Position numbers and translations under genes: made by a program. A stretch of 64,000 nucleotides of DNA, from positions 1-64,000 of the forward strand of contig JAMCVK010000015.1 of assembly GCA_023475225.1 (NCBI GenBank), in the 5' to 3' direction. This stretch comes from Chloroflexota bacterium. GTDB lineage: Bacteria > Chloroflexota > UBA6077 > FW602-bin22 > JAMCVK01. Of this stretch, positions 351 through 49,845 are shown in pieces. Under the pieces are notes generated by a model. It was given only the letters and a program-made list of their open reading frames with translations, had not been told where the DNA came from and searched no databases. Within the stretch, counting starts at the first letter, position 1. Every line of letters starts with the position of its first letter.

Positions 351-363
351 GGAAACGTTACCA
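351..363. promoter_or_regulatory. candidate LacI-family operator O2
   Basis: GGAAACGTTACCA is a near-copy of the site at 212-224, 139 bp further on and about 40 bp upstream of the regulator start codon. The spacing would allow repression by DNA looping between O1 and O2. Confidence 0.55.
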
Positions 364-402
364 CATTCAGTTGAGTCCTCGCCGCTAGCTCAGATCCAAG
401 CT

Positions 403-28136: not shown

Positions 28137-28997
28137 TTGCCGAGGCGTAGCGGAAGCACCAGGCCCAATACCACACCACTAGCCCAGGATATACAGGCAT
28201 TCCTCGACCACTGTGTGGATGAGGAGCATTCCCTTTCCACCATCCACACCTATGGCCAGGTGCTCGCCTCCTTCACCACCTGGATGGCCCAAAACCACCC
28301 CGCGGTGACAGCTATAAGCCAGCTAAAACTGAATCAGCTGCAGCAATTTCGCCGCTACCTGCGCGAGCGCAGCGCAGCCTACGGCCGGGAGCTCAGTCCG
28401 CGCACTCAGGCCAAATACCTAGCCACCATACGATCGCTACTCCGCTACTACACCACGGTGCAGGGAGAGCTGGTGCTCCCCCCAGAGCAGATCAGGTTGC
28501 CCAGAGTGGGGAGGGAGGACGATCGCCCGCGGCGCCCCCTCAGCAGGGGTGATCTACAGCGATTACTGGAGCAGCCGGATGTCAGCAAGCCTTGGGGATT
28601 GCGTGATAGGGCTATCATCGCTCTCTTGATCAATAGCGGACTGCGCGTCAGCGAGCTGTGTTCGTTGAATCGCAGCGACGTTCGGGAAGACCTCTTAGGC
28701 CAGCATCCCTTCTTGGAGGTCACGGTATCCCCACACGCCCGCCGCATCCGCTCGATTTACCTTGATGCCTTCACCCAGGAGCAGTTGGCTGCCTACTTAG
28801 CTGTGCGCCAGGATCGCTACCCCCCACTATTCGTACGTCATAAGCCAGGAAAGGGGAAGGAAAACGACGATCCGCAGCATCGCTTAACTCGTCAGATGGT
28901 AGCGCGCATGCTTAATAAATATGCCCGAGAGGCAGGGCTTACAACACTGCCTTCAGCTCAACAGCTTCGCCGCGCCCGCTTCAGCCCGGGGCCGTAG
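28137..28997 (+). CDS. degenerate tyrosine recombinase lacking catalytic residues
   Basis: 286-aa tyrosine-recombinase relative. The SAM-like N-terminal domain and the first catalytic Arg (SGLRVSELCSL) are present, but the Lys region reads VSPHARRIRSIYLD, the H-x-x-R box reads QQLRR, and the protein ends before the catalytic Tyr. In the G-run at the end, a one-base shift would continue the family-like GAVVIIQHL before another stop, so the 3' end is both shifted and cut. TTG 28137 follows AGGGGG. Its consensus promoter and operator-like repeats suggest it may still be made, perhaps as a DNA-binding protein; a decaying pseudogene is the alternative. Confidence 0.7.
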   Translation: MPRRSGSTRPNTTPLAQDIQAFLDHCVDEEHSLSTIHTYGQVLASFTTWMAQNHPAVTAISQLKLNQLQQFRRYLRERSAAYGRELSPRTQAKYLATIRSLLRYYTTVQGELVLPPEQIRLPRVGREDDRPRRPLSRGDLQRLLEQPDVSKPWGLRDRAIIALLINSGLRVSELCSLNRSDVREDLLGQHPFLEVTVSPHARRIRSIYLDAFTQEQLAAYLAVRQDRYPPLFVRHKPGKGKENDDPQHRLTRQMVARMLNKYAREAGLTTLPSAQQLRRARFSPGP

Positions 28998-29031
28998 TGA
29001 TCATCCAGCATCTGTAGAAAGGAGCCATGGG

Positions 29032-30483
29032 GTGCATATGGGAGGGGTTGAGGGGACAGAGAACATCGTCGTCCGACCGGTCTATCTCCGCGCCGTCAAC
29101 GCCATCGTGCAACCTGAGCGACAGGCACCCTGCACGGAATACTTCCTGCATCAGTGGCTGTCCCGCCTTGGCGCCCTACGCTGGGGCCTGGTCTTGACCC
29201 TGCGGACCATCTGCACCCAGCGGCAGACAGACGGCACCAATCGGGGCGAGGTCTCCCGGGGGCAACTATCTGAGATGCTCGGTGTGCATGAGGCGACCAT
29301 CACTCGTCTCCTGGCCACCGTCCCCAGCCCCACCTTCCCAGGCTGGCGAGAGATAGACCCCGCCCAGAGCGACGACGCCGAGAAGACAATATATCTGGCA
29401 AAATTCATCCCTCGACTGCGCTATAAATACGTGCGCGATGCTACGGCCGGCGTAACGCGCCGCATCGGCTACATCATCGATGTCGTCATGGATGATCCCC
29501 TCACCCCTGAGGATGAGGAGCGGTTGGCCGTAGCCCTGGCTGCTCAAATCCTCCACGGGGGGCATTGTCCATTGGACGAAGTAAAAGAACAGAATGATCT
29601 TTCAGCCAGTGTTATCCCCCAATCCTCCCCTTCACTGCCCCTTTCCCAAGGAGAGTCGTTCCCTCATAACACGCAAAATCTACTTTCACACTCAGAGGTG
29701 ATAGCGCATGATGCTATTTCACGCCCAGATGTAAGGAAACACAATGCTTCTTCTCAGGCAAGCCTGAACGCACACAATGCTCCCCCAGAGCCTCTCAAGG
29801 GGCAGGGTGGGCCCGTATTAACATTAACTTATAACTACATGGGAATAACCATAAACCGGAATCTTAAACGAAGAACAGAGATCAGAAGGGCCGTCAAACC
29901 GCTGGCCGAGTACGCTGCTCGACGCTTACACGATGAGCACTCCTTGGCAATGTTCTATTCTACCCTTCTCCAGCTCTACCCCGATCACCTCGAGCTCTTT
30001 GGGCAGTCCTTAGACGAGGCCATCGTGGCCGGGGAGGGAAATGCTGCCCTCAACATGGGGGCCTTTTTTGTCCGCTCACTGAAGCGGCTGGCAGCTGACC
30101 TTGGGGTACCCCTGCGTCTAGGTGCCCCAAGCGGTACGGAGAGAACTGCTCTGGGGGAAGAGGAAGAAAGTGAAAGGGAAGCCGAAGGTGGGGTGGGGGG
30201 GGTGCTCATCCCTAACGTGGCTTTACCAGGCACAAGGCTGTCCGGTCAGCAGGTCTGGCGGTCGGCCTTAGAGGAGCTGCGCGCTCAGACCGGGCGCGCC
30301 GCCTATGAGATGTGGCTACGCAATTGTCACATCGTTGGGACTGATGGCCAGGTGGTCATCATCGGCGTGCCCAATCAATTTGCTCTGGATTGGCTCAGCG
30401 AGCGCCTGGCCGGATCGATCGAGACAGCTCTCAGCCGCGTCATCGGTCAGAGGGTTAAGGTGAGATGTGAAGTTTATGGCTAA
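29032..30483 (+). CDS. HTH protein with C-terminal DnaA domain-I-like segment
   Basis: 483-aa protein. An N-terminal replication-protein-like region includes a helix-turn-helix (RGEVSRGQLSEMLGVHEATITR). A poorly conserved linker (about 185-275) follows. The last 80 residues (VWRSALEELRAQTGRAAYEMWL ... NQFALDWLSERLAGSIETAL) match the DnaA N-terminal domain, which binds DnaB helicase and partner proteins. No AAA+ domain is present. GTG 29032 lies 7 nt after AAAGGAG; ATG 29038 is the alternative. It may be a replication or loading adaptor of a mobile unit. Confidence 0.7.
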   Translation: MHMGGVEGTENIVVRPVYLRAVNAIVQPERQAPCTEYFLHQWLSRLGALRWGLVLTLRTICTQRQTDGTNRGEVSRGQLSEMLGVHEATITRLLATVPSPTFPGWREIDPAQSDDAEKTIYLAKFIPRLRYKYVRDATAGVTRRIGYIIDVVMDDPLTPEDEERLAVALAAQILHGGHCPLDEVKEQNDLSASVIPQSSPSLPLSQGESFPHNTQNLLSHSEVIAHDAISRPDVRKHNASSQASLNAHNAPPEPLKGQGGPVLTLTYNYMGITINRNLKRRTEIRRAVKPLAEYAARRLHDEHSLAMFYSTLLQLYPDHLELFGQSLDEAIVAGEGNAALNMGAFFVRSLKRLAADLGVPLRLGAPSGTERTALGEEEESEREAEGGVGGVLIPNVALPGTRLSGQQVWRSALEELRAQTGRAAYEMWLRNCHIVGTDGQVVIIGVPNQFALDWLSERLAGSIETALSRVIGQRVKVRCEVYG

Positions 30484-31566: not shown

Positions 31567-33279
31567 ATGATGATGCGACCTACGGGGGTGGAGGGGAGGA
31601 AACTGATCGGCCAAATCCTCGTTGAGGGGGCCTTCATCACCCCTGAGCAGCTCCAGGCAGCTATAGAGATGGCCCAGAAGTCCGGCAAGCGCGTCGGCCA
31701 GGTATTGATTGAGCAAGGGTTGATCAGCTCAGCCACCCTGGCTACGGTGCTTAGCTATCAGCTGAACGTGCCCATCATCGATTTGAAGCAGTATAAGATA
31801 CAGCCAGAGGCCCTCAGGCTCATCCCTGAAAACGTTGCCCGCCAGTTCGGGCTCCTGCCCCTGGCCATCGAGGGTGATTCGCTTGTCGTCGCCATGGAGG
31901 AGCCCCAGGACCTGCAAGCGATCGATACCTTAACCTCCCTCACCCGTATGCGCATCAAGCCGGTTATCGCCTTGCATGGGGGCATTCAGGAGGCCATCAA
32001 CAACAATTATAAGCTCACCTCCCAGATTAAGCAGCAGGTCAACCAGATTGTTGCCCCACCCCAAGCTATGGCCCGGGCCGCGGCTGAGCCATTGCTCTCC
32101 CCCGAGATGATCACCCAAGCCCCTATCGTGCGGGCCGTTGATATGATCATCACCCAGGCGGTGAAGGATAGGGCTTCGGATATCCATATCGAACCGGAGG
32201 ACGAGGCGCTGCGCATCCGTTACCGCATCGATGGTGTCCTTCATGAGGCCGTCTCTCTTCCCCTTGGCGTACACCAGGCCCTGGTCTCCCGCATTAAGGT
32301 TATGTCCAACATGAACATCGCCGAACGGAGGCGCCCTCAGGACGGGCAGTTCATGGCCAAGGTGGCCGATAAGGATGTCGACTTCAGAGTGGCCACGGCC
32401 GAAACCAACCGAGGCGAAATGGTCGTGTTGAGGGTGCTGGATAAAGAGGTCTCGGTGCGTAGCCTATCCGACCTCGGGCTATTGCCCGGCCCTCTCCAGA
32501 CATACGAGGCGATGCTCCAATCTCCCTTTGGCATGATCTTAATCAGTGGGCCCACCGGGAGTGGGAAGACGACCACCCTGTATGGCTCTGTCAATCAGCT
32601 GGATCCGATGACCCGCAACATCATGACCATTGAGGATCCGATTGAGTATCGCTTCAAAAACATCAATCAAATTCAGGTGAATCGCCAGGCTGATATCACC
32701 TTCGCCTCAGGGCTGCGGGCCATCCTGCGTTTAGACCCGGATGTTATCCTGGTGGGGGAGATTCGGGATGGAGAGACGGCCGAAACGGCTATTAACGCTG
32801 CTCTCACCGGCCATCTGGTGCTCTCCTCCATCCATGCCAACGACGCCGTTAGTGCACTCCTGCGCCTGATCGATCTGGGGGTGGAGCCGTTTTTGGTCAC
32901 CTCTGCGGTGATCGCCACCCTCTCTCAGCGTCTAGTCCGACGTGTCTGCCCTTACTGCCATAGCCTTGTCCAGGTATCGCCGGCCGAGGCTATGGCCTAC
33001 CAGCAGGAGATGGGACAGGTGCGGACAGAGTTTCACTATGGCCGTGGCTGTAACTTCTGTGCCCGTACCGGCTACCTGGGCCGCATAGGCGTCTTTGAGC
33101 TGCTGCCCATGTCAGAGCAGATCCGGCAGCTCGTTACACGGCGGGCGACAGCCGCAGAGATCAAGGCCCAGGCCCTCCAGGAGGGGATGATTACCATGCG
33201 GCGCGATGGCATGACTAAAGCGCGGGATGGTGTAACTACCCCTGCGGAGATCATCCGCAACGTCTTCACCATCGGATAG
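31567..33279 (+). CDS. pilB: type IV pilus extension ATPase PilB
   Basis: 570-aa GspE/PilB ATPase. The N-terminal MshEN (GspE-N) domain (10-150) can bind c-di-GMP in relatives. Walker A GPTGSGKTTTLY, Asp/His boxes, Walker B VILVGEIRDGETAETA and a tetracysteine zinc site (CPYC ... CNFC) are all present. It powers pilus polymerisation at the cytoplasmic membrane. It heads an operon of nine more genes. An HD-GYP gene in the same operon supports c-di-GMP control. Confidence 0.95.
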   Translation: MMMRPTGVEGRKLIGQILVEGAFITPEQLQAAIEMAQKSGKRVGQVLIEQGLISSATLATVLSYQLNVPIIDLKQYKIQPEALRLIPENVARQFGLLPLAIEGDSLVVAMEEPQDLQAIDTLTSLTRMRIKPVIALHGGIQEAINNNYKLTSQIKQQVNQIVAPPQAMARAAAEPLLSPEMITQAPIVRAVDMIITQAVKDRASDIHIEPEDEALRIRYRIDGVLHEAVSLPLGVHQALVSRIKVMSNMNIAERRRPQDGQFMAKVADKDVDFRVATAETNRGEMVVLRVLDKEVSVRSLSDLGLLPGPLQTYEAMLQSPFGMILISGPTGSGKTTTLYGSVNQLDPMTRNIMTIEDPIEYRFKNINQIQVNRQADITFASGLRAILRLDPDVILVGEIRDGETAETAINAALTGHLVLSSIHANDAVSALLRLIDLGVEPFLVTSAVIATLSQRLVRRVCPYCHSLVQVSPAEAMAYQQEMGQVRTEFHYGRGCNFCARTGYLGRIGVFELLPMSEQIRQLVTRRATAAEIKAQALQEGMITMRRDGMTKARDGVTTPAEIIRNVFTIG

Positions 33280-33292
33280 GTGAGGGGGCACG

Positions 33293-34501
33293 ATGTTATA
33301 CAAGTATGTGGCCTACGGGGCTGATAGCAATCTGGTTACGGGCACGATTGAGATGGATTCGGAAGAGGCAGCTGAGGAGGCGCTTTGGCGTGCTAACCTG
33401 ACCGTCATCACCCTCAAACCGCAGCGACGATGGCCCACTCTGGAGGAGCTGTTTCCGACCTTCTTCGGGGTCAAACGGCGCGATCTTATCGTGATGACCA
33501 GGCAGCTGGCCACCCTCCTCGAGTCGGGCATCGCTATCCTCCCCGCGCTGCATCTCCTGGCCGATCAGGCGTCCAATCGCTGGCTACGGCGGATACTGCG
33601 GGAAGTAGCCAACTCCTTACAGGAGGGGAACCCTCTTTCACGGTCGCTGGCTAACTATCCTCTCGTCTTCCCCACCATCTATGTGCGGATGATCGAGGTG
33701 GGGGAGGGGATCGGTGGACTTGATCTTGTCCTCCGCCAGTTGGCCACTTATATGGAGAAGGAAGAAAGCCTGTTGAACAAGATCCGCAATGCGATGATTT
33801 ATCCGGCCTTCGTCCTCACCATCGCCGCTGGGGTGGTGGTCATCGTGGTCACCTTCGCCCTGCCGGCTATGATTGGCTTCTTCGCCGAGTTCAAGGCCCA
33901 ACTGCCCTGGACGACCAGATTGTTGATCGCCATAACAGAATTCGTCCAGGTCTTTAAGATACATCTCCTGGTCACGGTGGTCAGTCTGGCGGCCATGTTC
34001 TGGTGGTATAGTCATACTGAGCGAGGCGCCAGGCAGATAGATCGCTTCATGCTCACTATGCCCCTGTTGGGTACGGTAAACCTCAAGGGGAATGTGAGCC
34101 GATTTTGTCGGACGATGTCCATCCTGCTGCGGGCCGGATTGCCGTTGACGGAGATTATGGACCTGAACATTCAGACGACCCAAAACAGGGTCATCAGAGA
34201 GGCACTCCAGCAGGTGCGTAGCGATGTTTTGGCTGGCCTGCCGCTCTCCGGGGCTGTGGACCAGCGTCCCGTCTTTCCCAAGATGGTCCCGCAGATGATG
34301 CGTGTTGGTGAGGAGACAGGCACCCTGGATGCTAACCTGGAGACGTTAGCGAACTTCTATGAGGAGGAGGCGGATCGGGCCATCGCCACGATAACAGCCC
34401 TCATTGAGCCTCTGATGATCGTCGGCGTCGGCATAGTAGTCGGCTTCATCGCCTTATCGGTGATTATGCCTATGTACACTATGCTCAGAGCGATTAAATA
34501 A
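33293..34501 (+). CDS. pilC: type IV pilus platform protein PilC
   Basis: 402-aa GspF-family inner-membrane platform protein. Two repeated GspF domains (about 70-190 and 270-395; MTRQLATLLESGIAILPALHLL and CRTMSILLRAGLPLTEIMDL) are each followed by membrane helices. It couples PilB/PilT to the growing pilin filament. GAGGGGGC before ATG 33293 is the ribosome site. Confidence 0.95.
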   Translation: MLYKYVAYGADSNLVTGTIEMDSEEAAEEALWRANLTVITLKPQRRWPTLEELFPTFFGVKRRDLIVMTRQLATLLESGIAILPALHLLADQASNRWLRRILREVANSLQEGNPLSRSLANYPLVFPTIYVRMIEVGEGIGGLDLVLRQLATYMEKEESLLNKIRNAMIYPAFVLTIAAGVVVIVVTFALPAMIGFFAEFKAQLPWTTRLLIAITEFVQVFKIHLLVTVVSLAAMFWWYSHTERGARQIDRFMLTMPLLGTVNLKGNVSRFCRTMSILLRAGLPLTEIMDLNIQTTQNRVIREALQQVRSDVLAGLPLSGAVDQRPVFPKMVPQMMRVGEETGTLDANLETLANFYEEEADRAIATITALIEPLMIVGVGIVVGFIALSVIMPMYTMLRAIK

Positions 34502-34536: not shown

Positions 34537-34584
34537 ATGTCCTGGCTAGAGGTGCCACATATTGGGCTTGGGGATGGATGGTGA
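34537..34584 (+). CDS. 15-codon upstream ORF (possible leader peptide)
   Basis: A GGAGGAG site (34527-34533) precedes ATG 34537; the 15-codon frame MSWLEVPHIGLGDGW ends with TGA at 34582-34584, overlapping the ATG at 34584 of the Kelch gene (TGATG). The best ribosome site of this junction belongs to the short ORF, so it probably couples translation to the large gene. No function in the peptide itself is visible. Confidence 0.45.
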   Translation: MSWLEVPHIGLGDGW

Positions 34585-37500
34585 TGAAAAGGTGGCCATG
34601 GTCATGGGCCAGCATGAGGCTCCACTTTATCCTTCTTTTCTCCATGGTGGTGCTTCTTCTGGGGGGTTCCCCCGGCGTTGTGGCTATGACCCGATCCTAT
34701 ACGACGGTGTCCGATTTCGCCAGTGGGCTTAAGGAAAACGGCAATCTTGTCATCACGCGCACAGGGGATGGTGAATTGGAGCTGTCCCGCCGGGGCTTCC
34801 TAAAGAGCTGGACCTCAACCGCCTCTCTTAATAGCGGTAGGCTGGGCGCCGCTGTTGTGGCGGCTGGTAATCACCTTTATGTCATCGGTGGTTGGAATGG
34901 GGATTATCTGAACTCAGTCGAAATAGCCGCCATTCAGCCTGATGGCACGCTGAGCAGTTGGCTCTATACGAGCCCCTTGACGGTGAAAAGATCTTTCCAT
35001 GCGGCTGTCGTGGCCGATGGTTATCTTTATGTCCTTGGTGGCAGTGATAGCACTGGGACGCTGTCATCCATTGAGCGGGCGGCCATGCGGGGCGATGGCA
35101 GTTTAGCCCCCTGGACTACGTTGAGCAGTCGCCTGACGACCGCCAGGCAAGGGTCGGCTGTCGTGGTCGTCGAAGGGAGGATATATATCATCGGTGGATC
35201 CGATAGCGCTATGTCCCTCGGCTTAGCCAGGGATCTGGTCACCACTGATCCTTCCCTCTTGGGAGAGGATGAGCCGCAGCGAGTTGGCACCGCAGCGATA
35301 AGCGTTCTCAGCAGCGTTGAATGGGCGACGATCAATGCCGATGGTAGCCTTGGTTCTTGGGCAAGCACTAGCCCCCTGGCGATGGGGCGGGTTTTCACAG
35401 CGGGCGTCGTCGCTTCTGATGTCAACGGCTATAAATACATCTATGTCCTTGGTGGCTGGAATAACGGCTACCTGGCCACTGTAGAGCGGGCCTGGGTGCG
35501 CGACGATGGGACGCTGGAGAGCTGGAGCGCGACGGCGTCACTGCGGATGAAACGGGGGTACCACGCGGCTGTCGTGGCCAATGGCTATATTTACGCCCTC
35601 GGTGGCTACGATGGCACCCATCTCAGCGCCGTTGAACGGGCGACGCTTAACGCCGATGGTACGCTGGGTGGCTGGATGACGAGCGCCGCATTGAGCACAG
35701 CCAGACGGGGACTGGGAGGGGTAGCCGTTGATGGACGGCTGTACACCCTGGGCGGCTATGATGGAAACAGCGTTCTGGGCAGCGTCGAGCTGGCGGTAGT
35801 GAAGAGTGAGGGTTCTCTAGGTGGATGGTTTTCAGCGACCTCCCTGGGGACAGCGCGCTATGGCGCGGCGGCCGTAGTCGTCAATGACCGCATTTATGTC
35901 CTTGGTGGCTTCGATACTGACTGGAACGTTTTGAGTAGCGTGGAGATGTCTGTCCTCAATGCGGATGGTACTTTGGGGCCCTGGACGACGACGACGGCGT
36001 TGATCACCCCCACGGCCCAATTGTCCGCCGTGGCCTGGAACGGTTATATCTACGCTATTGGTGGTTGGAACAACACTGATGGCTATCTTGGCATTGTCCA
36101 ACGGGCAACGGTGAATCAGGATGGGACGCTGGGCAATTGGACTGCTGTGAGCGCCTTGAACACTAAACGGGCCCAGCATGCGGCAGTAGTGACCAACGGT
36201 CGCCTCTATGTCAGTGGTGGATATAATGCGAGCGATGGTGTACTCTCCAGTCTCGAACGGGCCACGCTAAACTTTGACAATACGGTGAGTGCCTGGACAC
36301 CTTTGCCTACCAGCCTGAATACTCCCAGGTATAGTCACGCCTTGGTGGTGGCTGGCGGTAACATCTACGCCATAGGGGGTTACCGTGGGGATGCCTATCT
36401 TAAGAGTGTGGAGAGGGCGACGGTTGATCTGCGGAGCGGCGACTTATCTCCATGGCAAACGGAGTCTTCCTTGCAACTGGCCCGGTCAGGGGTGGCCGCC
36501 GTGGCCCACGGGCATTTTCTCTATGCCCTCGGTGGAGCGATCGGTCCGGAGGATAGAAAAGACCCTGGCGTTGAGCGCGTCACGGTTAAGCCCGATGGAC
36601 GATTGGGCGATTGGCAGATAATCTCCTCCTTGAGCACGGCCAGGAGTGGGGCAGCGGCCGTAGTGGCCAATGGCTACATCTATGTCTTTGCCGGTCACAC
36701 AGGGACGAAGCCCCTCGCTAGCGTGGAGGGGGCGGCCCTGACCACTGATGGAAGCCTGGAAGGATGGGGGCGCGCCAGCGATATGGTGAGGGCCAGGTAT
36801 GGGCATGGCACGGTGGCGACCAGCACTTGGCTCTACAGCGTGGGAGGAGATGATGGGAACAATGCCCTCAGCAGCGTGGAGCGGGCTCCCATCAATAGTG
36901 ATGGGAGCCTTGGCCCCTGGCAGGAGACGAGTCCCCTGGCTTATGCCCACAGTGGGGCGGCAGTGGCCATGGCCACCGTAATAACGGGGACGACGACCGC
37001 TAAATACATCTACGCTATAGGGGGACGGGATGGCCAGCGCTACTATGACCGGGTGGAAGGGGCGGTTATCGCTGTTGATGGTTCCTTGGGGACATGGCAG
37101 GAGGGACCGCATCTGACCCGACCTCGCTACGAGGCCACGGCGGTGGTGATGGGCAATTATCTTTATGTCCTGGGTGGATATGACCAGGAGGGCAATGTCC
37201 TCAACAGCGTCGAACGAGCAGCTATTAAGACTGACGGCACCTTAAGTTCTTGGGGGCTGGTCTCCAGCAGTATGCGCACGCCCCGCTACGGCGCCGCGGC
37301 CGTCGTGGCCGACGGCTTCCTCTACGTCTTTGGGGGTAAGGATGGGACGGGGTTAAGCGGCTCTGTGGAACGGGCCTGGATAGGCCCTGATGGGGGACTG
37401 GGGACCTGGCAGGTGGTGTCTATCCTCAATGTGCCCCGCTACCGTTCGGCCGCAGCGTATCTAAATGGCTTTCTCTACGTCCTTGGTGGCGATGGTGGGG

Positions 37501-38054
37501 GGCCACTAAGTAGTGTGGAATGGGCGCGTCCCAACACCGATGGTTCGGTGAGCAGCTGGAATTTCACCAGCTTGCTCCTTGTGGGGAGGAAGGGGCTGAG
37601 CGCTACGGTGAGTGGTGGCAACATATACGTTAGCGGCGGGCAGGATGGCGGTGTTGTTCTTAAAAGCGTGGAACGCACGGGGGCCAGCGCCCTCCTGCCC
37701 CCTGGCGGTAGCTATACAGGCCATGCGGATTTTGCTGTCGATGTTTCGATCGATTCCTTGTCCTGGGATGGTACGGCCAACGATGGTCTAATTGAGGTGC
37801 GTTATCGGACGGCGCCAAATAGTACGGCCCGTTACGGAGAATGGACGCCCTACTCCACGATAACGCCCGTCAGTGTCGGCGTCAACGCCAGGTACCTTGA
37901 ATATCAACTACGGCTGCGACGGGCGGGTGATCTGGCCGTACCGCCGCTCGTACGGGAGGTTCGCCTGGAAGCGAGCGCCCTGCCAGCCACGCCCACCTGG
38001 GTGTATAAAGCGTATTTCCCGCTCGTGATGAAGGGTTACGTCAGCGGTTGGTGA
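34584..38054 (+). CDS. giant secreted Kelch-repeat protein
   Basis: 1156-aa exported protein. A signal peptide (basic start, hydrophobic stretch LHFILLFSMVVLLLGG) is followed by 18 Kelch-type repeats of about 55-60 residues, each with a Y-x-x-G-G core (YVIGGWNGDYLNSVE, YALGGYDGTHLSAVE and so on), then a beta domain and the tail YKAYFPLVMKGYVSGW. Eighteen repeats would make three six-bladed propellers. ATG 34584 is preferred over 34578 because of the TGATG coupling. Being inside the pilus operon, it may be a surface adhesin or a pilus accessory; its ligand is unknown. Confidence 0.85.
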   Translation: MKRWPWSWASMRLHFILLFSMVVLLLGGSPGVVAMTRSYTTVSDFASGLKENGNLVITRTGDGELELSRRGFLKSWTSTASLNSGRLGAAVVAAGNHLYVIGGWNGDYLNSVEIAAIQPDGTLSSWLYTSPLTVKRSFHAAVVADGYLYVLGGSDSTGTLSSIERAAMRGDGSLAPWTTLSSRLTTARQGSAVVVVEGRIYIIGGSDSAMSLGLARDLVTTDPSLLGEDEPQRVGTAAISVLSSVEWATINADGSLGSWASTSPLAMGRVFTAGVVASDVNGYKYIYVLGGWNNGYLATVERAWVRDDGTLESWSATASLRMKRGYHAAVVANGYIYALGGYDGTHLSAVERATLNADGTLGGWMTSAALSTARRGLGGVAVDGRLYTLGGYDGNSVLGSVELAVVKSEGSLGGWFSATSLGTARYGAAAVVVNDRIYVLGGFDTDWNVLSSVEMSVLNADGTLGPWTTTTALITPTAQLSAVAWNGYIYAIGGWNNTDGYLGIVQRATVNQDGTLGNWTAVSALNTKRAQHAAVVTNGRLYVSGGYNASDGVLSSLERATLNFDNTVSAWTPLPTSLNTPRYSHALVVAGGNIYAIGGYRGDAYLKSVERATVDLRSGDLSPWQTESSLQLARSGVAAVAHGHFLYALGGAIGPEDRKDPGVERVTVKPDGRLGDWQIISSLSTARSGAAAVVANGYIYVFAGHTGTKPLASVEGAALTTDGSLEGWGRASDMVRARYGHGTVATSTWLYSVGGDDGNNALSSVERAPINSDGSLGPWQETSPLAYAHSGAAVAMATVITGTTTAKYIYAIGGRDGQRYYDRVEGAVIAVDGSLGTWQEGPHLTRPRYEATAVVMGNYLYVLGGYDQEGNVLNSVERAAIKTDGTLSSWGLVSSSMRTPRYGAAAVVADGFLYVFGGKDGTGLSGSVERAWIGPDGGLGTWQVVSILNVPRYRSAAAYLNGFLYVLGGDGGGPLSSVEWARPNTDGSVSSWNFTSLLLVGRKGLSATVSGGNIYVSGGQDGGVVLKSVERTGASALLPPGGSYTGHADFAVDVSIDSLSWDGTANDGLIEVRYRTAPNSTARYGEWTPYSTITPVSVGVNARYLEYQLRLRRAGDLAVPPLVREVRLEASALPATPTWVYKAYFPLVMKGYVSGW

Positions 38055-38076: not shown

Positions 38077-40020
38077 ATGCAGCTCGATCTAGCCCGGCGC
38101 AGGCCGGAGGCTCGTCACAGGTTTATCGATATTAATCTCCTACCACCGGAATATCGGCGGGCAGCGTTATCAACGCTGCTCATCGTGTTAGGGCTTTTAG
38201 CGATCATCGGGCTCTTTTTATCCCTATCTCTTTACCAGGTCAAGGTGAGGGTCGATGGGGAGATCACCCGTTTGGGGGACCAACTCCGCCAAGCACAGGG
38301 GGAGACCAAGAAGCTGAAGGCCGCTGAGGGGGAGGCCAAAAAGCTGCAAGAGGCCATCAACCAGGCGAAACAGTCCTTGAAGGTGATGCAGCAGGACTAC
38401 CAGGTGCTGGCGACACGCCGGGTCGATTGGTCGAATATCCTGCGCACCATCGTCACTACCACTTCCCCCGATATCCGTTTCGAGGCCATCAATCAGAGCG
38501 GTCCGGTGATTACCTTGAAGGGAACAGCCGGCGATTATGCCAGCGTGGTGCTTTATAGTGATGAATTGCGGAAGTCGAAGATCTTCCAGCGAGTCTCCAT
38601 CCAATCGCTGACGGAGGGTGGACCGGCGCCTGCTGAGCAACCAACCCCGGTAGGGGTTCCCACTCCGACGGTTGCTCCTCCGCCAGCTACGGTACCACCC
38701 ACCCCGACGCGCCTTATCCCCACCCCGACCCCTACAAGGGTGGCTACCCCTGGGTCGCCGACGCCAACCCCGACGGTCACGCCTACCAGGCCACCGGCCA
38801 CTCCGACACCTACGCCGACGCCGGCCTATGACTACATCGTCCTCTCTAAGACGATGAGCCCTTACCCGGACAGCGAGGGCGATAGCAGCTCCATCCGGGG
38901 CAAGGTGATCGATCTGGCTGGTAACCTGATCCCTGGGCTGCAATTTAAGATCAGCAGCGAGGGGCTACCACCCTGGTCGGCCATAACGCCGCCACTGGGC
39001 TCATCCCCCTCTGATGGCACCTTCGCTTTCTACGTTACGAAAGGCACGTTCAGCGTAGAGGTGCTCAGTGGGAGGTCACAAAAGGCGACGGGTCTCTTCA
39101 CAGGCGCCGCGGGGGTGCGGGGTGTGAACGTTTGGGAGGTCGTCTTTCAGAAGGTTACGCCGGGCACACCAGTACCGCCCACTCCGACCCCTACCCCCAC
39201 GGCCACGCCAACGCCTGGTGCGACCAACATCGCCCTTGGCCGACCGGCCAGCGCTTCAGCGACGGCCAGCGGCAGTGCAGCGGCGCTGGCCGTTGATGGG
39301 GACACCAACACGCTGTGGAATGCTGGAACCTACCCATCAGCCTGGTGGGAGGTCGATCTGGGAACCCCCTCACAGGTTACCGGCATTGAATTAGTGGTCA
39401 GCCAGGCGCCCAGTGGCTATACGACACATGAGGTTTGGACCTATACGGCGGCGGGAAGCGGCTCTCTGGTCTATACCTTCGGTGGGAATACAAGCGATGG
39501 ACAGGTTCTCAGTTATACCTTCAGTTCGCCCCTCAGTGGGGTAAGCCGAGTTAGGATCAACACTACCAGCAGCCCGAGTTGGGTGGCCTGGCGGGAGGTC
39601 AGGGTCTATGGCTTTACGCCCACTCCTACTCCTACCCCTACGGCCACCCTGACGCCCACGTCTACCCCCACACCTACGCCAACGCCGACGAGCACGCCCC
39701 TTCCACCGACGCCGCTGCCCACGGCCACCCCAACGCCGACCCCCACACCCACGCGAACGCCGACCGTCGTTGCCTCCGCGCTGGGGTACTCATCACTCGA
39801 GCACCTGTTGGCCAGCGGCAGCTCAGCGGTCAGCGCTTCGGACGGGGATGTAGTCCGAGGGCCGAGATCGGCCCGGCCAGCCCTTGGATCCGACATGGCG
39901 GCGAAAGATATACTCGCCGGAAAGCTGGCCGCTCCGGCCCCCGCTCTGCTGGCTCCTCAGGGGAGGACCACCGTATCCTTCGTCTTGGTCCTGGAATTGC
40001 GCGCGAGGACTGGACAATGA
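38077..40020 (+). CDS. pilN: PilN-like pilus assembly protein fused to a discoidin (F5/8C) domain
   Basis: 647-aa protein. Residues 1-190 are PilN: cytoplasmic start with DINLLPPEYR (PilM-binding type), one membrane helix (about 33-56), coiled coil and ferredoxin-like fold. Then come a TP-rich linker, a carboxypeptidase-regulatory-like beta domain (about 250-360), another linker, an F5/8 type C domain (about 383-512, NIALGRPASASATASGS ... WWEVDLG) and a long TP linker with a tail. Ordinary PilN has about 200 residues. Because PilN faces outward from the membrane, the extra domains would lie in or beyond the wall and may bind glycans. GGGAGGAG precedes the start. Confidence 0.82.
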   Translation: MQLDLARRRPEARHRFIDINLLPPEYRRAALSTLLIVLGLLAIIGLFLSLSLYQVKVRVDGEITRLGDQLRQAQGETKKLKAAEGEAKKLQEAINQAKQSLKVMQQDYQVLATRRVDWSNILRTIVTTTSPDIRFEAINQSGPVITLKGTAGDYASVVLYSDELRKSKIFQRVSIQSLTEGGPAPAEQPTPVGVPTPTVAPPPATVPPTPTRLIPTPTPTRVATPGSPTPTPTVTPTRPPATPTPTPTPAYDYIVLSKTMSPYPDSEGDSSSIRGKVIDLAGNLIPGLQFKISSEGLPPWSAITPPLGSSPSDGTFAFYVTKGTFSVEVLSGRSQKATGLFTGAAGVRGVNVWEVVFQKVTPGTPVPPTPTPTPTATPTPGATNIALGRPASASATASGSAAALAVDGDTNTLWNAGTYPSAWWEVDLGTPSQVTGIELVVSQAPSGYTTHEVWTYTAAGSGSLVYTFGGNTSDGQVLSYTFSSPLSGVSRVRINTTSSPSWVAWREVRVYGFTPTPTPTPTATLTPTSTPTPTPTPTSTPLPPTPLPTATPTPTPTPTRTPTVVASALGYSSLEHLLASGSSAVSASDGDVVRGPRSARPALGSDMAAKDILAGKLAAPAPALLAPQGRTTVSFVLVLELRARTGQ

Positions 40021-40571: not shown

Positions 40572-41342
40572 ATGAATGATACCTCGCCGGATAAGACGCC
40601 GGACACAAGCGATCTCTCCCTTCGGCAGGCTCAAATCTACGCTAAAGAGTTGAATGTCCTCTTTCAGGAGGAACGCAAGAGGCGGCAGGAGCTGGAGGAG
40701 GAGAAACGGCGGCTGGAACAGCGCATACGCGAGTTGATGGCCTTAAATGCCCTTTTTCAGGAGCAGCAGGCCAAGATGTTCCAGATACAGCAGTCTTATG
40801 GATGGCTGGAGGCCATTCTCCAGGAGGTGGTGGCTACGCTGGACGCCCGGGATCCAGGCAGGCAAGGGCATTCAACACGAGTGGCCCAATTGGCCAGCGA
40901 CCTGGCCTCCAGGATTGGCTTAACCGATGAGGGGTTGCCCTTAGCCGCCCGCTTGCACGACATAGGCTATATCCTGATCCCTGATGGTATCCTGCTGCGC
41001 CGTGATTCCTTGAGTCCAGCAGAGGAGGCGGTGTTTAAGCAGCATCCGCTCATTGGGGATACAATTTTACAGGCGGCAGGACTGCCTTTGGAGGTCAGGC
41101 TGACCGTGCGCCATCACCACGAGAATTACGATGGGAGTGGCTACCCTGATGGGTTGGCTGGTGAGCAGATAGGGCTATCCGCTCGCCTCATCGCGGTCAT
41201 CGAGGCTTATGAGGAGATGTCGACCTGGCGACCGTATCGCCCGCCGCTATCCAGGGAGCAGAGCATGCTTAAGTTGCGAGAGGGGGCGGGCATACAGTAC
41301 GACCCATTCATTGTTAAGTCCTTGGGAGAGATACTAGGATGA
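40572..41342 (+). CDS. HD-GYP domain c-di-GMP phosphodiesterase
   Basis: 256-aa protein. An N-terminal coiled coil (about 20-75) precedes an HD-GYP domain: HSTRVAQLA, the HD doublet in LHDIGYILIP, HHHENYDGSGYPDGLAG (GYP) and the late Asp region. It should hydrolyse c-di-GMP. Its place between pilO and pilM, and the MshEN domain of PilB, suggest local control of pilus activity. AAGGAG supports the start; it overlaps pilM by ATGA. No sensor domain is visible, so the coiled coil may dock it on pilus parts. Confidence 0.9.
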   Translation: MNDTSPDKTPDTSDLSLRQAQIYAKELNVLFQEERKRRQELEEEKRRLEQRIRELMALNALFQEQQAKMFQIQQSYGWLEAILQEVVATLDARDPGRQGHSTRVAQLASDLASRIGLTDEGLPLAARLHDIGYILIPDGILLRRDSLSPAEEAVFKQHPLIGDTILQAAGLPLEVRLTVRHHHENYDGSGYPDGLAGEQIGLSARLIAVIEAYEEMSTWRPYRPPLSREQSMLKLREGAGIQYDPFIVKSLGEILG

Positions 41343-42235
41343 GGGTGAAATTGCCCCTCTTGTGGCCGAGCTCCGTTGTTTCCCTGAGCATTGAGGGGAG
41401 CAGCTTACGGCTCCTCAGTTGTAAGGGTGGCCGTATCCAGTCCTGGGTAAGCATCCCGCTTAACCCCAGGCTGCTGCGCGGTGGCTTCATCGCTGACCCG
41501 CTGGCGCTCAGCGGGGTGATCCGCACGGCCATGGAGAAGGCGCATCTTTCGCCAGGGAGGGTCATTGGCGGTCTAACTGGACTACAATCGGTTTCACGTT
41601 TAATATCCCTCCCCAAAGTGGCCGCGGGCAGCCTGGAGGCGATCGTTCAACGGGAGGCGCGCCGCTCGCTAGCGATTTCTCTGGAAGGGAATTACCTCTA
41701 TTGGCAGGCACTTGATGGTCGCGGAGAAGAGCTCCAGGTTTTCGTCCTGGCCGTGCCCAAGGAACCCCTGCTGGCTTTCCTGGCGGCCTTGCGCGGCGCG
41801 GGGCTGCGGCCGCGGGCGATCGATTTGCGGCCGCTAGCCCTGGCCAGGGCTGTAGCCCAACCACAGGCCATCATCGCTAATGCGGAGAGTAACAGCGTAG
41901 ATGTGGTCGTCGTTGTCGACGCTGTGCCAGTTCTGGTGCACACCTCCTTTCTGGGCGATGAACCGCTGCCCCCTGAATATGTACGCGATCGCTTGACCGA
42001 TGAGTTGCTGCGGGCCATCACTTTTTATAACGATACGCATAGGGGCAGCCCCTTAGCGCCCGATATCCCGCTATATCTTACGGGTGAGATGGCCAATGAA
42101 ACAGAGTTGGTGGAGAGCATACCAGCGTTGACGGGGCATCCGCTGGCTATCCCTCAGCCCCCCTTGCCCTATCCGGCGGGCTTTCCGCTGGCTCTCTACA
42201 TGGTGAATATCGGCTTAATTTTGAAGGAGGTCTAA
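41339..42235 (+). CDS. pilM: PilM-like actin-fold pilus assembly protein
   Basis: 298-aa protein with the divergent actin-like fold of PilM: opening VVSLSIEGSSLRLLS, a middle domain with REARRSLAISLEG, and a final region with YLTGEMAN. PilM binds the cytoplasmic tail of PilN and links to PilB. The order N-O-HDGYP-M differs from the usual M-N-O. Sequence conservation is modest, so the name rests partly on position. It overlaps the HD-GYP gene by 4 bp. Confidence 0.78.
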   Translation: MRVKLPLLWPSSVVSLSIEGSSLRLLSCKGGRIQSWVSIPLNPRLLRGGFIADPLALSGVIRTAMEKAHLSPGRVIGGLTGLQSVSRLISLPKVAAGSLEAIVQREARRSLAISLEGNYLYWQALDGRGEELQVFVLAVPKEPLLAFLAALRGAGLRPRAIDLRPLALARAVAQPQAIIANAESNSVDVVVVVDAVPVLVHTSFLGDEPLPPEYVRDRLTDELLRAITFYNDTHRGSPLAPDIPLYLTGEMANETELVESIPALTGHPLAIPQPPLPYPAGFPLALYMVNIGLILKEV

Positions 42236-42241
42236 GCAGGC

Positions 42242-42979
42242 TTGGAGGCACTCATCTTGGGGTTAGCTGGTCTGGTCATTGGCAGCTTTCTCAATGTAGT
42301 CATCGATCGCCTGCCACGAGGTGAGTCCATCGTCAATCCCCCTTCGCATTGTGATGTCTGTCAGCAGCGGCTAGGGGTGGTTGATCTGGTGCCGCTGGTC
42401 AGCTACCTTTGGCTGCGGGGCCATTGCCGCTATTGCGGGGCGAGGATCCCCCGGCGGGTGCCGCTGGTGGAGCTGGCCAGCGGATCCTTGTTCGTTCTGT
42501 TATGGTATAGATATGGCTGGGGGCTTCCCCTGGCGGTGACTGTCCTGTATAGCTGTATCCTCCTTGTCATTTTGGTCATCGATCTGGAGCAGCAGCTCAT
42601 CCTGAATAAGGTCATCTACCCAGCCATCGTCCTGTCCCTTGCCCTCTCCTGGCTGGGGCCGGGTCTGCCTAGCTCTTTGCTCGGAGGGATCAGTGCTTCC
42701 CTTCTGCTCCTTGGGCCGGCCCTGATTTACAAAGGGGGGATGGGTGGGGGGGACATCAAGCTGGCTGCCTTCATTGGACTGGTCACCGGCTTCCCCCTCG
42801 TGTTGGTGGCCGTTTTTTTGTCCCTCGTCGGAGGGGGTTTGCTGGCGACGGCCTTGTTAGTGTTGCGGCGGAAGGGGCGCAAGGAGGCGATCACCTTCGG
42901 TCCTTTCTTGGCCGGTGGGGCGGTAGCTACGCTGTTCTGGGGGGAACAGCTTTGGCGCTGGTACATGGGCCGCTTTTAG
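42242..42979 (+). CDS. pilD: prepilin peptidase PilD
   Basis: 245-aa membrane aspartic protease/methylase. The N-terminal domain has the C-x-x-C ... C-x-x-C zinc-type cysteines (CDVCQQRLG and CRYCG), followed by membrane helices containing the GGGDIKLAAFIG active-site motif and the earlier LVIDLEQQLI Asp. It cleaves and N-methylates the pilins encoded at 23221, 23583 and 44522. TTG 42242 is used, 11 nt after GGAGG. Confidence 0.92.
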   Translation: MEALILGLAGLVIGSFLNVVIDRLPRGESIVNPPSHCDVCQQRLGVVDLVPLVSYLWLRGHCRYCGARIPRRVPLVELASGSLFVLLWYRYGWGLPLAVTVLYSCILLVILVIDLEQQLILNKVIYPAIVLSLALSWLGPGLPSSLLGGISASLLLLGPALIYKGGMGGGDIKLAAFIGLVTGFPLVLVAVFLSLVGGGLLATALLVLRRKGRKEAITFGPFLAGGAVATLFWGEQLWRWYMGRF

Positions 42980-42989
42980 GGAGGGAACG

Positions 42990-44051
42990 ATGCATATAAA
43001 TGATCTTTTGGCTCTTATGATTCAGAGGGAGGCTTCCGACCTGCATCTAAAGGTGCCCTCTCCACCTGTGTTGCGGGTCGACGGGGTGCTCCAGCCCCTG
43101 ACCGACTTGCCGCGCCTGACCCCCCAGGATATGGAGGAGATCTTTGCCGCACTCGTCTCTGCGGAGCAAAGGGAACGATTCCGTCAGGAGCTGGAATTAG
43201 ATTTCGCCTATAGCCTGGCGGGGGTGGCCCGCTTCAGGGTCAATGCCCATATGCAGCGGGGGACTGTTGGACTGGCTATTCGGGTTGTTCCCCTCCAGGT
43301 GCTCACCATCGAGCAGCTTGGCCTGCCGGAGGCTTGTAAGACGCTGGCTATGCGGCCACGGGGCTTGGTTCTCGTCACTGGCCCAACTGGTAGTGGCAAG
43401 TCTACCACCTTAGCGGCGATGATCGATTATATCAATGAGAATGCTCAGGTTCATATCGTGACCATAGAGGATCCGATTGAGTTCCTCCATCGGGATAAGA
43501 AAGCAGCCATTGCCCAGCGGGAGGTCGGTAGCGATACGCAGTCCTTCGCGGCGGCCCTGAAACATGTCCTTCGTCAGGACCCGGATGTGATTCTCTTAGG
43601 GGAGATGCGGGACCTGGAGACGATCGCCACGGCCCTCACGGCCGCTGAGACAGGGCACCTGGTGTTGGCTACCCTGCACACGACCAGTGCGCCGCAGACG
43701 ATGGACCGCATCATAGACGTGTTTCCGCCGCACCAGCAGGAACAGGTGCGCCTCCAGCTGTCGATGGTGCTGGAGGGTGTATTATGTCAACAGCTCATGC
43801 CCAGGGCCGATGGGAGGGGGCGTATCGCCGCTATTGAGGTGATGGTGGCCAACCCAGCCATCCGCAACCTCATCCGTGAGGGCAAGACCTTCCAGATCCC
43901 CAGCGTTATGCAGATGAGTGGGCAGCAGGGCATGCAGACCCTCGACCAGGCGCTGTGGGCCCTGGTGCAGAAGCGGCTGGTGACTATGGAGGAGGCCCTG
44001 TTGCGGGCGAGCAATCCGAACGAGTTGCGCCGCCTGGTGGGGGTATTCTAA
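42990..44051 (+). CDS. pilT: type IV pilus retraction ATPase PilT
   Basis: 353-aa PilT ATPase. Walker A GPTGSGKSTTLAA, Asp-box EDPIEFLH, Walker B DVILLGEMRDLETI and the PilT-typical AIRNLIREGKTFQI segment are intact. It disassembles pili, giving twitching or DNA-uptake pulling force. GGGAGGG precedes the start. It ends the operon; a repeat-rich 470-bp gap follows. Confidence 0.95.
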   Translation: MHINDLLALMIQREASDLHLKVPSPPVLRVDGVLQPLTDLPRLTPQDMEEIFAALVSAEQRERFRQELELDFAYSLAGVARFRVNAHMQRGTVGLAIRVVPLQVLTIEQLGLPEACKTLAMRPRGLVLVTGPTGSGKSTTLAAMIDYINENAQVHIVTIEDPIEFLHRDKKAAIAQREVGSDTQSFAAALKHVLRQDPDVILLGEMRDLETIATALTAAETGHLVLATLHTTSAPQTMDRIIDVFPPHQQEQVRLQLSMVLEGVLCQQLMPRADGRGRIAAIEVMVANPAIRNLIREGKTFQIPSVMQMSGQQGMQTLDQALWALVQKRLVTMEEALLRASNPNELRRLVGVF

Positions 44052-45329: not shown

Positions 45330-45656
45330 ATGATGTACGAGCGATTACCTATGCAAAAAGTTATTCCAGCGACAGAGGTCAGAAACAAACTGGGAAGGCT
45401 CCTCAACCGCGTCTATCGTAGTGAGGAACACCTGGTCGTGGAGAAACTGGGCATCCCTGTTGCGGCGATCATCAGTATGAAAGACTACGAGCAGTACCGA
45501 CGCTTGCTCGCTAAGGAGGCACTCCAGAGGCTTGGCCCTAAACTCGGCGGGGAAGCCCAACGTCAGGGCCTCACGGAAGAAGGGCTGCAAGAGGAGATGG
45601 CCAAGGCCCGCCACGAGGTCTTCGCCGAGACGTATGGCAAGCTCCCTCAACCCTAG
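45330..45656 (+). CDS. Phd/YefM-family antitoxin
   Basis: 108-aa protein. The N-terminal Phd/YefM DNA-binding fold is visible (VIPATEVRNKLGRLLNRVYR, then VVEKLGIPVAAIISMKDYEQYRRL); the charged C-terminus would wrap the toxin. It overlaps the PIN toxin gene by 23 bp. GGAGGGAGG precedes ATG 45330; ATG 45333 is an alternative. The palindrome in the promoter is its likely operator. Confidence 0.85.
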   Translation: MMYERLPMQKVIPATEVRNKLGRLLNRVYRSEEHLVVEKLGIPVAAIISMKDYEQYRRLLAKEALQRLGPKLGGEAQRQGLTEEGLQEEMAKARHEVFAETYGKLPQP

Positions 45657-46143
45657 GCGGCTGCGCGTCATGGTGGATACCACCGCTCTTGTCGCTGGGA
45701 CAATTTGGCCCCGCTTCCCTTACGAGGTGCTCCAGCATGTGCTGTGGGGAGACTTTACCCTCGTGCTCTCCCCCTACGCCATCGCCCAGGCCCGGCGCGT
45801 GTTGCACCGCCGCTTTCCGGCCTACCTCCAAGACTTCGAGGATTTGCTTCTTTTGATTCCCTATGAGGAGGCGCCGAGTCCCTCCCCTGAAGAGGTCACG
45901 GCCAACCGCGCGCTCGTGCGCGACCTCACCGACGTACCATTAGGGCTCTCCGCCATTGCTGCCGGCGTTGACTACCTGGTCAGCGACGACAAGGATTTCA
46001 CCACCCCAAACCAGCCCATTCACGGGAAACTGCGCATCCTCCAATCCAGCACCTTCCTCAACGAGGTCATGGGCCACTCCCACGAAGAGCTCGATCGGAT
46101 CAAGCAGCGAACCTGGGCAGATATTCCTGAAATGATTAAGTAG
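45634..46143 (+). CDS. PIN-domain toxin (VapC-like)
   Basis: 169-aa PIN-domain protein. Acidic residues are in RVMVDTTALVAG (first Asp), the central Glu-rich segment and LVSDDKDF (last Asp pair), consistent with a Mg-dependent RNase. ATG 45634 overlaps the antitoxin frame; ATG 45670 is a shorter alternative. In such pairs the toxin cleaves RNA, often tRNA, when the antitoxin is lost. Confidence 0.8.
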   Translation: MASSLNPRRLRVMVDTTALVAGTIWPRFPYEVLQHVLWGDFTLVLSPYAIAQARRVLHRRFPAYLQDFEDLLLLIPYEEAPSPSPEEVTANRALVRDLTDVPLGLSAIAAGVDYLVSDDKDFTTPNQPIHGKLRILQSSTFLNEVMGHSHEELDRIKQRTWADIPEMIK

Positions 46144-47861: not shown

Positions 47862-48746
47862 GTGCCTGGCAGGCCTTCGCCGATCTACCTTGATAATGCA
47901 CCGCCTAAGAACTTACCTCTCTTTGGGAATGGCCTGGAGGTGAGACCGCGCAGAAAACTTATCGCCTTCGGGTGGTATGGCGGCAAGTATTCCCACTTAG
48001 ATTGGCTGCTTCCACTTCTTCCAAAGTGTCACCACTACTGCGAACCGTTTGGCGGATCAGCAGCAGTTCTCTTGAACAGGGACCCATCTCCGGTCGAAAC
48101 GTTTAACGATATAGACGGAGAAGTAGTCAACTTCTTCCGCGTACTTAGAAACAATACGGATCGTCTCCTGAATGCCATCGCCTTGACTCCATTTTCAAGA
48201 GAGGAATTCTTCATTGCTTGTTCAACAAATGGTAGAAAAATCTCTGACCTAGAGCGTGCTAGGCGTTTCTTCATCCGAGCTCGCCAGGCTAGGACAGGCT
48301 TAGCGCAAACCGCCTCTATAGGACGCTGGGCAAACTGCAAGAACACGACCCGAGCAGGGATGTCAGGCGTTGTCTCACGCTGGCTTGGTAGCGTTGAGAT
48401 GTTACCGGAAATTGCTGAGCGTCTTCTTCGAGTCCAGATCGAAAACAGGCCAGCAATTGAAGTGATACGCCTTTACGACAATAAGGATACTTTATTCTAC
48501 TGCGACCCTCCTTATCCCCACGATGCCCGAGGCGATGATAAAGCATATGGATACGAAATGACCGACCAGGATCACGTAGAGTTGGCTCAGGTTCTTCACC
48601 AGGTCAGGGGGATGGTTGCTGTCTCGGGTTATCGCTGCGATCTGATGGACGAACTCTATAAAGACTTCAGGCGCTATGACGCTCCAACAAAGATATGTCA
48701 CTCGGTTAAGAAACCCCGGATGGAAGCGCTTTGGATGAACTACTAA
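47862..48746 (+). CDS. DNA adenine methyltransferase (Dam/M.DpnM-like)
   Basis: 294-aa D12-class N6-adenine methylase. Motifs are FGWYGGKYSHLDWLLPLLP (SAM-binding), CEPFGGSAAVLLNR and the catalytic DPPY (215-218). GTG 47862 follows a near-perfect AAAGGAGGTGA. It is followed 12 bp later by a SacI-like restriction enzyme, so it is the likely protecting methylase of a type II system. The specificity cannot be read from sequence. Confidence 0.88.
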   Translation: MPGRPSPIYLDNAPPKNLPLFGNGLEVRPRRKLIAFGWYGGKYSHLDWLLPLLPKCHHYCEPFGGSAAVLLNRDPSPVETFNDIDGEVVNFFRVLRNNTDRLLNAIALTPFSREEFFIACSTNGRKISDLERARRFFIRARQARTGLAQTASIGRWANCKNTTRAGMSGVVSRWLGSVEMLPEIAERLLRVQIENRPAIEVIRLYDNKDTLFYCDPPYPHDARGDDKAYGYEMTDQDHVELAQVLHQVRGMVAVSGYRCDLMDELYKDFRRYDAPTKICHSVKKPRMEALWMNY

Positions 48747-48758
48747 GCGTGCCCGCAG

Positions 48759-49845
48759 ATGCCCCCGATTGACTATAACGCTGCGAGGAATCTTCTCGAC
48801 CGCGAGTTCGCTGAAGTCGAATCCCAATTCTTGCAGGGAACATCTCAGCAAAGTAAATCTTCCCTGATGCCCCACTTTGACATAATCTTTCGGTCTCAAA
48901 CTCAGGCCTACCGGGAAGTTTTGCTGGGCTGTGTGATCGCTCGACTTCAAGACAGGGCTATTGATATTCACAAACCATACGTAAATCAGGGGCCCCATGC
49001 CTACAATGGGCGAACTCTCGACGAGAGAGTTGTAAACCCCTTTCTTCAAGATAAGCGTGTTCCCAGCTCTCGAGGGCCATTTCTTTCTACCTTCCGTCGC
49101 TCTGTCGGCTTTGACAGCAGTACTCGTGATGGCTTGCGAGATAAGGAAGGATTCGATGCGCTTCTGTCCTTGATTGATTACGTAGCAGGGGAGAACAATG
49201 ATGCCAATCTCCTGGCCTTCCTCCGCTATCTTCTTTTCAGGTTTCTTGAACTGCGGCGAGAAGTTGACATTCCTCCTTCCAGGCTTCAACGGATCAGCCT
49301 CGAACAGTACGATGATCTGATCACAGGTTTGCTATCAACGCTGAGCGGTGGAAGATTTCCGGTCATCCTAGTCGAGGCTGCCTTTGAAGCGATAAGAGAT
49401 TCCTTTGGTCTGTCCTGGCAAATTGAATCCCAAGGCATAAACGTCGCCGATCGCCCTTCCGGCGCCGGTGGCGATGTAACGATCAAGAGCGGGGATACTA
49501 TACTCCTGGCAGCCGAGATTACGGAAAGACCGGTAGACAAGAGCAGAGTAGTAGCTACCTTTAACACAAAGATTGCTCCACAAGGGATTGAGGATTACCT
49601 CTTTTTTGTGAGACCTTCAGCCGTAGGAGGATGCTGTACGCCAAGCACGGCGATACTTTTCGCAGGGGTATGAAGTCAGTTTTCTGGAAATAAAGAACTG
49701 GATACTCATGACGCTAGCCACGTTAGGGAAGAAAGGAAGGGGAATGTTCAATCACGTTATGCTGGATCGACTCTCGGCTGAGGGTGTTCCCTCTACCCTA
49801 AAAGTGGCATGGAACGACGTTATCGCTCGGATCACGACGGCCTGA
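48759..49845 (+). CDS. SacI-family restriction endonuclease, frameshifted near the 3' end
   Basis: The uninterrupted frame (48759-49673) codes 304 residues resembling SacI-type enzymes (IIFRSQTQAYREVLLGCVIA, LDERVVNPFLQDKRVPSSRG, FRRSVGFDSSTRDGLRDKEG). Near 49625 the frame breaks: reading one base on gives EDAVRQARRYFSQGYEVSFL and continues to TGA 49843-49845, about 72 more codons of coherent sequence. The restored enzyme would be about 361 aa. The shift removes the C-terminal fifth and probably inactivates it, unless it is a sequencing error. It lies just after the methylase. Confidence 0.78.

Follow-up and report, generated by a model that had tools for sequence, protein, structure and literature searches.

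A Chloroflexota PilN with a discoidin-containing insertion very probably placed in its last beta-hairpin, a candidate wall tether of a secretin-less type IV pilus

A pilN gene of the Chloroflexota bacterium GCA_023475225.1 encodes a protein in which a discoidin domain was found within a type IV pilus assembly component. This locus raises the question of whether the additional domains follow a finished PilN or lie inside its fold, and of what such domains would do at the base of a pilus. The DNA analysed (the window) is the forward strand of contig JAMCVK010000015.1 from position 1 to 64,000. The gene was found to occupy positions 38077-40020 (+) as one intact open reading frame of 647 amino acids with no break, and relatives have the same single continuous frame, in agreement with the earlier note, which had regarded it as one protein. 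Two proteins, or a frameshift that joins them, are extremely improbable and are ruled out by these relatives since the same single frame was observed in independent assemblies; the frameshift or internal start in relatives that the note had proposed to look for was not found. The architecture is neither a product of chance nor an assembly join, because it recurs in independent metagenome-assembled genomes (MAGs).

The gene is located in a type IVa pilus cluster coding for PilB, PilC, a kelch protein, PilN, PilO, an HD-GYP protein, PilM, PilD, PilT and a pilin (Table 1), so that pilM and pilO are found in the same cluster as pilN. The PilO of the window is of ordinary size and its start codon overlaps the stop codon of pilN. 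As this overlap was observed in most long PilN forms and also in several short ones, the C-terminus encoded by pilN can be taken as the same landmark in both. No plasmid copies of the PilN part were found.

Table 1. Positions of the pilus genes and of the parts of PilN in the window (aa, residues of PilN)
Feature	Residues	Positions	Strand	Basis
PilB-type ATPase and PilC platform protein		31567..34501	+	T2SSE 421 bits, MshEN, T2SSF
PilN proper	aa 1-181	38077..38619	+	IDINLLP motif (cytoplasmic), transmembrane helix, coiled coil, alpha-beta-beta, alpha-beta of core
First Pro/Thr-rich tether (about 66 residues)	aa 183-249	38623..38823	+	67% P+T; pLDDT mostly <50
Beta-sandwich module	aa 250-363	38824..39165	+	pLDDT about 70-91 in core-less model
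Short Thr/Pro linker between beta module and discoidin	aa ~362-385			
F5/8 type C (discoidin, CBM32-like) domain	aa 385-512	39229..39612	+	PF00754, Foldseek
Second Pro/Thr tether and low-complexity stretch	aa ~513-629	39613..39963	+	TPTPT runs (Thr/Pro part ~514-570); pLDDT 21-45
Last beta strand of PilN core and C-terminus (R-TTVSFVLVLELRARTGQ)	aa 630-647	39964..40017	+	AlphaFold, similarity to ordinary PilN C-termini
PilO	179 aa	40017..40556	+	Weak PilO match under Pfam cut-off
PilM, PilD prepilin peptidase, PilT-type ATPase		41339..44051	+	PilM_2, A24 peptidase, T2SSE

Other genes of the cluster deserve a short description. A secreted-looking kelch-repeat protein of 1158 aa, which ends in YFPLVMKGYVSGW, lies between pilC and pilN (34578-38054, +) and is possibly a tip or surface adhesin. 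It was rejected as a conserved partner of PilN, as the relatives of group f6 that were inspected have a glutamate-synthase-like gene (named by eye) upstream of pilN. The HD-GYP type protein (HD_5; 40572-41342, +) located between pilO and pilM suggests cyclic-di-GMP control of the window pilus. Elsewhere, the apparently enlarged PilO of KatS3mg060 (L043, 402 aa) was found to be a PilO-PilM run-on, probably due to a MAG frameshift, and was left out of the analysis.

The identification as PilN is borne out by a PF05137 match at residues 121-182, which scores 29.3 bits against a gathering score of 22.8. Furthermore, the N-terminus carries a motif of the PilM-binding type, IDINLLPPEYRR, followed by a hydrophobic helix, and both are conserved in the alignments. 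The PilN family profile matches the PilN of Myxococcus xanthus (3jc8) with an E-value of 1.8e-11, and the two proteins have in common the INLLP motif, a transmembrane helix, a coiled coil, an alpha-beta-beta/alpha-beta-beta core and the pilMNO context. Published PilN and PilO cores consist of two alpha-beta-beta motifs (PMC5805733). In the full-length AlphaFold model of the window protein, helices at 118-127 and 154-166 and strands at 133-141, 144-151 and 170-181 were observed, and the second motif is completed by a strand at 632-641 at the far end of the chain.

Only positions 2-63 of the 78 positions of PF05137 were aligned in the window PilN, and in the long relatives the alignment breaks off at position 55-63; the final beta strand is within the roughly 15 positions left unmatched. 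The C-terminal end of the window protein (...GRTTVSFVLVLELRARTGQ), located directly before PilO, looks like this missing strand, and the four complete relatives of the same order have similar tails just before PilO (GPVRFTIVMELKSG, GPVDFTIIVEVASG, GRVSFLIAAQARPGG and GRVSFLIIAQARPGG). In the full-length model the strand at 632-641 is ordered (pLDDT 72) and is preceded by approximately 115 disordered residues. In a model of residues 250-647 alone, from which the PilN core was left out, the beta and discoidin modules were still ordered, but the tail fell to a pLDDT of about 37 and the strand was gone. Since the strand is ordered only with the core present, its partner is most likely the PilN core. 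Both models were built from shallow alignments of 7-8 sequences, with a mean pLDDT of 52 and 58, and the strand pairing was deduced from folding with and without the core.

In addition, tails were joined in silico to the core and scored on the profile of ordinary PilN proteins against 300 shuffled tails. A gain of 3.5-9.5 bits was observed for the window, G001, G010, G269 and KatS3mg060, while G002 and G008 showed zero gain on this profile. Shuffled tails scored as high in 5 of 300 cases for the window, in 1 of 300 for G269 and in none of 300 for G001, G010 and KatS3mg060. For the window, segments drawn from its own insert equalled the score of the tail in 16 of 300 draws.

The order of Pfam domains alone looks like a C-terminal fusion, in which PilN would be complete by about residue 190, the domains would be added behind it and the tail would be irrelevant. 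The earlier note had proposed this topology, with some 450 residues following the end of PilN near residue 190, and it was not supported, as the last strand of the fold is found at 632-641 and the module sits in the last beta-hairpin. The PF05137 profile that is cut short, the conserved tail strand with its resemblance to ordinary C-termini and the AlphaFold models with and without the core all stand against a fusion; it is very improbable and was rejected on account of the displaced last strand. Instead, both sequence and models indicate that this is very probably a bona fide PilN with about 450 residues inserted in its last beta-hairpin, before the final strand. The insert is built from a tether, the beta module, a linker, the discoidin domain and a long Pro/Thr tether, in this order. 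Whereas canonical PilN has a short loop in the last hairpin, the window PilN has about 450 residues with two domains at the same place. Annotations of the type 'PilN ends, domains follow' can therefore conceal domain insertions.

A beta domain and an F5/8 type C domain between threonine/proline linkers, as the note had described, are indeed present, the latter with a PF00754 score over the cut-off and both in the AlphaFold models. The PF00754 match covers residues 391-508 with 51.5 bits (cut-off 28.2) on a jelly-roll fold, and it is the sole match of this family in the window genome. Discoidin folds are able to bind proteins and lipids too. Foldseek matched the domain to CBM32s and to fucose- and galactose-binding modules. 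The CBM32/F5/8 type C domains of secreted glycosidases (2v72, 4lpl, 4zy9) have the fold and the Pfam family in common with the window; however, those sit in enzymes and the discoidin domain of the window in a membrane-bound component of the platform that assembles the pilus. Many invariant residues were observed in the beta module. The window copy scored 15.0 bits on PF13620 (carboxypeptidase-regulatory-like), below the cut-off of 32.3, and is therefore called only a beta module here, while the copy of a relative (L014) scored 32.5.

The beta module was also noticed in other proteins. In a Ser/Thr kinase (L030; G007:C15:44361-44855) it makes up the ectodomain, and it is found at the extracellular end of short membrane-anchored proteins with Pro/Thr stalks (L033, L034).

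Long PilN proteins were found in 14 genomes belonging to two classes. In the order of the window, PilN is detectable in 8 genomes (the window included) and all 8 have the long type; four complete relatives have approximately 930-1070 aa and three others are cut by contig ends. Three Pfam discoidin stretches were observed in G001 as compared with one in the window. The other class contributes six genomes with a Pro-rich tether in PilN (G269, G402, G428, G431, G442 and G446), where PilN of G428 and G442 is cut at contig ends. The beta module is present in all five PilN proteins of this class that reach that far. A profile scan gave zero discoidin matches in G269 and in L043 (G431 has an identical PilN), and the rest likewise show no apparent discoidin domain. 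Judged by identical PilN stretches, G431 and G442 appear to be KatS3mg060 and HOT.Cluster.3, respectively. The complete proteins of this class keep the tail strand, with G402 and G431 extending about 45 residues past it. The first tether has 60-84 residues in 10 long PilN proteins with a sequence that is hardly conserved; it is much shorter in G446 and thus a fixed reach is not universal.

A length survey of Chloroflexota PilN proteins, as the earlier note had recommended, gave 10-38 residues after the third beta strand in 27 ordinary proteins against 234-895 in the complete long ones, and the insert is absent from most PilN proteins of the phylum. In a maximum-likelihood tree made from the PilN core with the insert left out, 11 of 11 long forms fall on one side of a branch that has a support of 91/93 and was recovered in 86% of bootstraps; none of 500 label shuffles was as low. 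Judging from these sequences, a single origin within the Chloroflexota is most likely for the insert, which takes the place of an otherwise short loop. The simplest history, which we consider most likely, starts from one insertion that brought the beta module; discoidin domains were added afterwards in the order of the window.

Searches for secretin (PF00263) and Omp85 (PF01103) gave no match in 13 of 13 genomes of the order, while control genomes gave matches, and these genomes show no diderm type IVa pilus with the PilQ secretin. It is unlikely that all 13 blanks are due to MAG incompleteness. The gene content fits a monoderm cell envelope and a pilus that has no PilQ, and we saw no sign of the outer membrane whose absence the note had assumed.

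Together with PilM and PilO, its predicted partners, PilN would be placed in the cytoplasmic membrane, and the loop would therefore project outward from the pilus base; the orientation of PilN points to an extracytoplasmic site for the insert. The proposal that a binding domain projects from the pilus base is a sound deduction. The loop both leaves this base and comes back to it, since the module interrupts the last beta-hairpin. By our own estimates, the first tether could reach about 20 nm if extended (66 residues at about 0.3 nm each) and the tethers could put the beta and discoidin modules 20-30 nm out, within the wall or at its surface. There the modules may bind an envelope glycan, as their fold suggests. 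A ring of PilN loops might then anchor the assembly platform in the wall or align it there and leave the filament a way through, a task which would fall to these loops because the machine has no secretin exit channel. We give a probability of about one half to this reading, in which the insert is a tether that binds glycans and fixes a type IV pilus machine lacking a secretin in the wall. Anchoring or alignment is deduced from the absence of the secretin and from the similar case of PilO described below. Somewhat unlikely, and more tentative, is the further idea that in this lineage PilN itself came to replace the PilP/PilQ exit route, with hairpin-inserted glycan-binding loops forming a ring that docks the platform into the wall and keeps a passage open.

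The same features could be read in other ways. The insert may be an adhesin or sensor that reaches beyond the wall to bind glycans of surfaces, neighbours or substrates, with PilN serving as a membrane anchor or coupling contact to the pilus. External glycans are common targets of discoidin/CBM32 modules, a changing target would explain the differing counts of discoidin-like domains (a single one in the window against three Pfam stretches in G001), and the beta module also occurs as a kinase ectodomain. However, the reach is limited since the loop is held at the pilus base by both of its ends and the tether is finite, and the forms of the other class have the beta module only, with no discoidin match, so that we regard this as unlikely. 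A tolerated decoration or spacer with no specific ligand would fit the hardly conserved linker sequence and the fact that insertions in hairpin loops are often tolerated. It is rather improbable given that two classes, with 14 genomes between them, have kept an insert that apparently arose once, that the beta module has many invariant residues and that the tether length is largely kept. The insert might also act as a collar on the pilus, guiding, gating or sensing it by binding the filament itself or its cargo (glycosylated pilins or DNA). In other type IV pili the pilus base is ringed by PilN and PilO (PMC6916266), and a glycan-binding loop beside a pilin is plausible; we consider this collar improbable to a similar degree.

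The reading as a wall tether has parallels in known systems. In the monoderm Streptococcus sanguinis, PilO is enlarged to 56.6 kDa next to an ordinary PilN of 22.3 kDa, and a review speculates that this PilO anchors the machine to the wall (PMC6916266). As in the window, extra sequence is found there in the assembly sub-complex of a secretin-less type IVa pilus, where it was proposed to serve in crossing the wall or in anchoring (PMC6916266), but S. sanguinis enlarges PilO whereas the window has an ordinary PilO and a PilN enlarged by internal insertion. Litorilinea aerophila, also of the Chloroflexota, has a LysM-PilO next to an archaellum with no PilQ or PilP, an arrangement described for 3 organisms (PMC13319060). 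It resembles the window in its phylum and in having an alignment-complex protein with a module of the wall-binding type, but its LysM is on PilO beside an archaellum while the discoidin and beta modules of the window are inside PilN in a type IVa pilus cluster.

No description of a PilN with a domain insertion or a discoidin domain was found in the open-access literature, most subscription papers being outside this coverage. The suggestion that the design had not been described therefore stands for PilN in that literature, but not for wall-facing additions in general, which are known on PilO of secretin-less pili (PMC6916266, PMC13319060). A PilN with an envelope-facing insert of the lectin type would be a second, independent candidate besides PilO (PMC6916266) for seating the machine in the wall where there is no outer membrane. 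The insert seems to have been gained a single time and then extended in steps (the beta module, then one or more discoidins), and as a defined part it can be deleted or studied by itself.

Other features were noticed elsewhere in the window. A protein of 520 aa (28921-30483, +), whose C-terminal end (residues 443-505) is formed by a DnaA N-terminal domain, is adjoined by a tyrosine recombinase at 28137-28997. A likely toxin-antitoxin pair was observed at 45330-46143 (+), where a Phd/YefM-like frame (assigned by eye) is followed by a PIN_3 protein. Finally, a D12-class adenine methyltransferase is followed by a match to a SacI-like restriction endonuclease at 47862-49673 (+).
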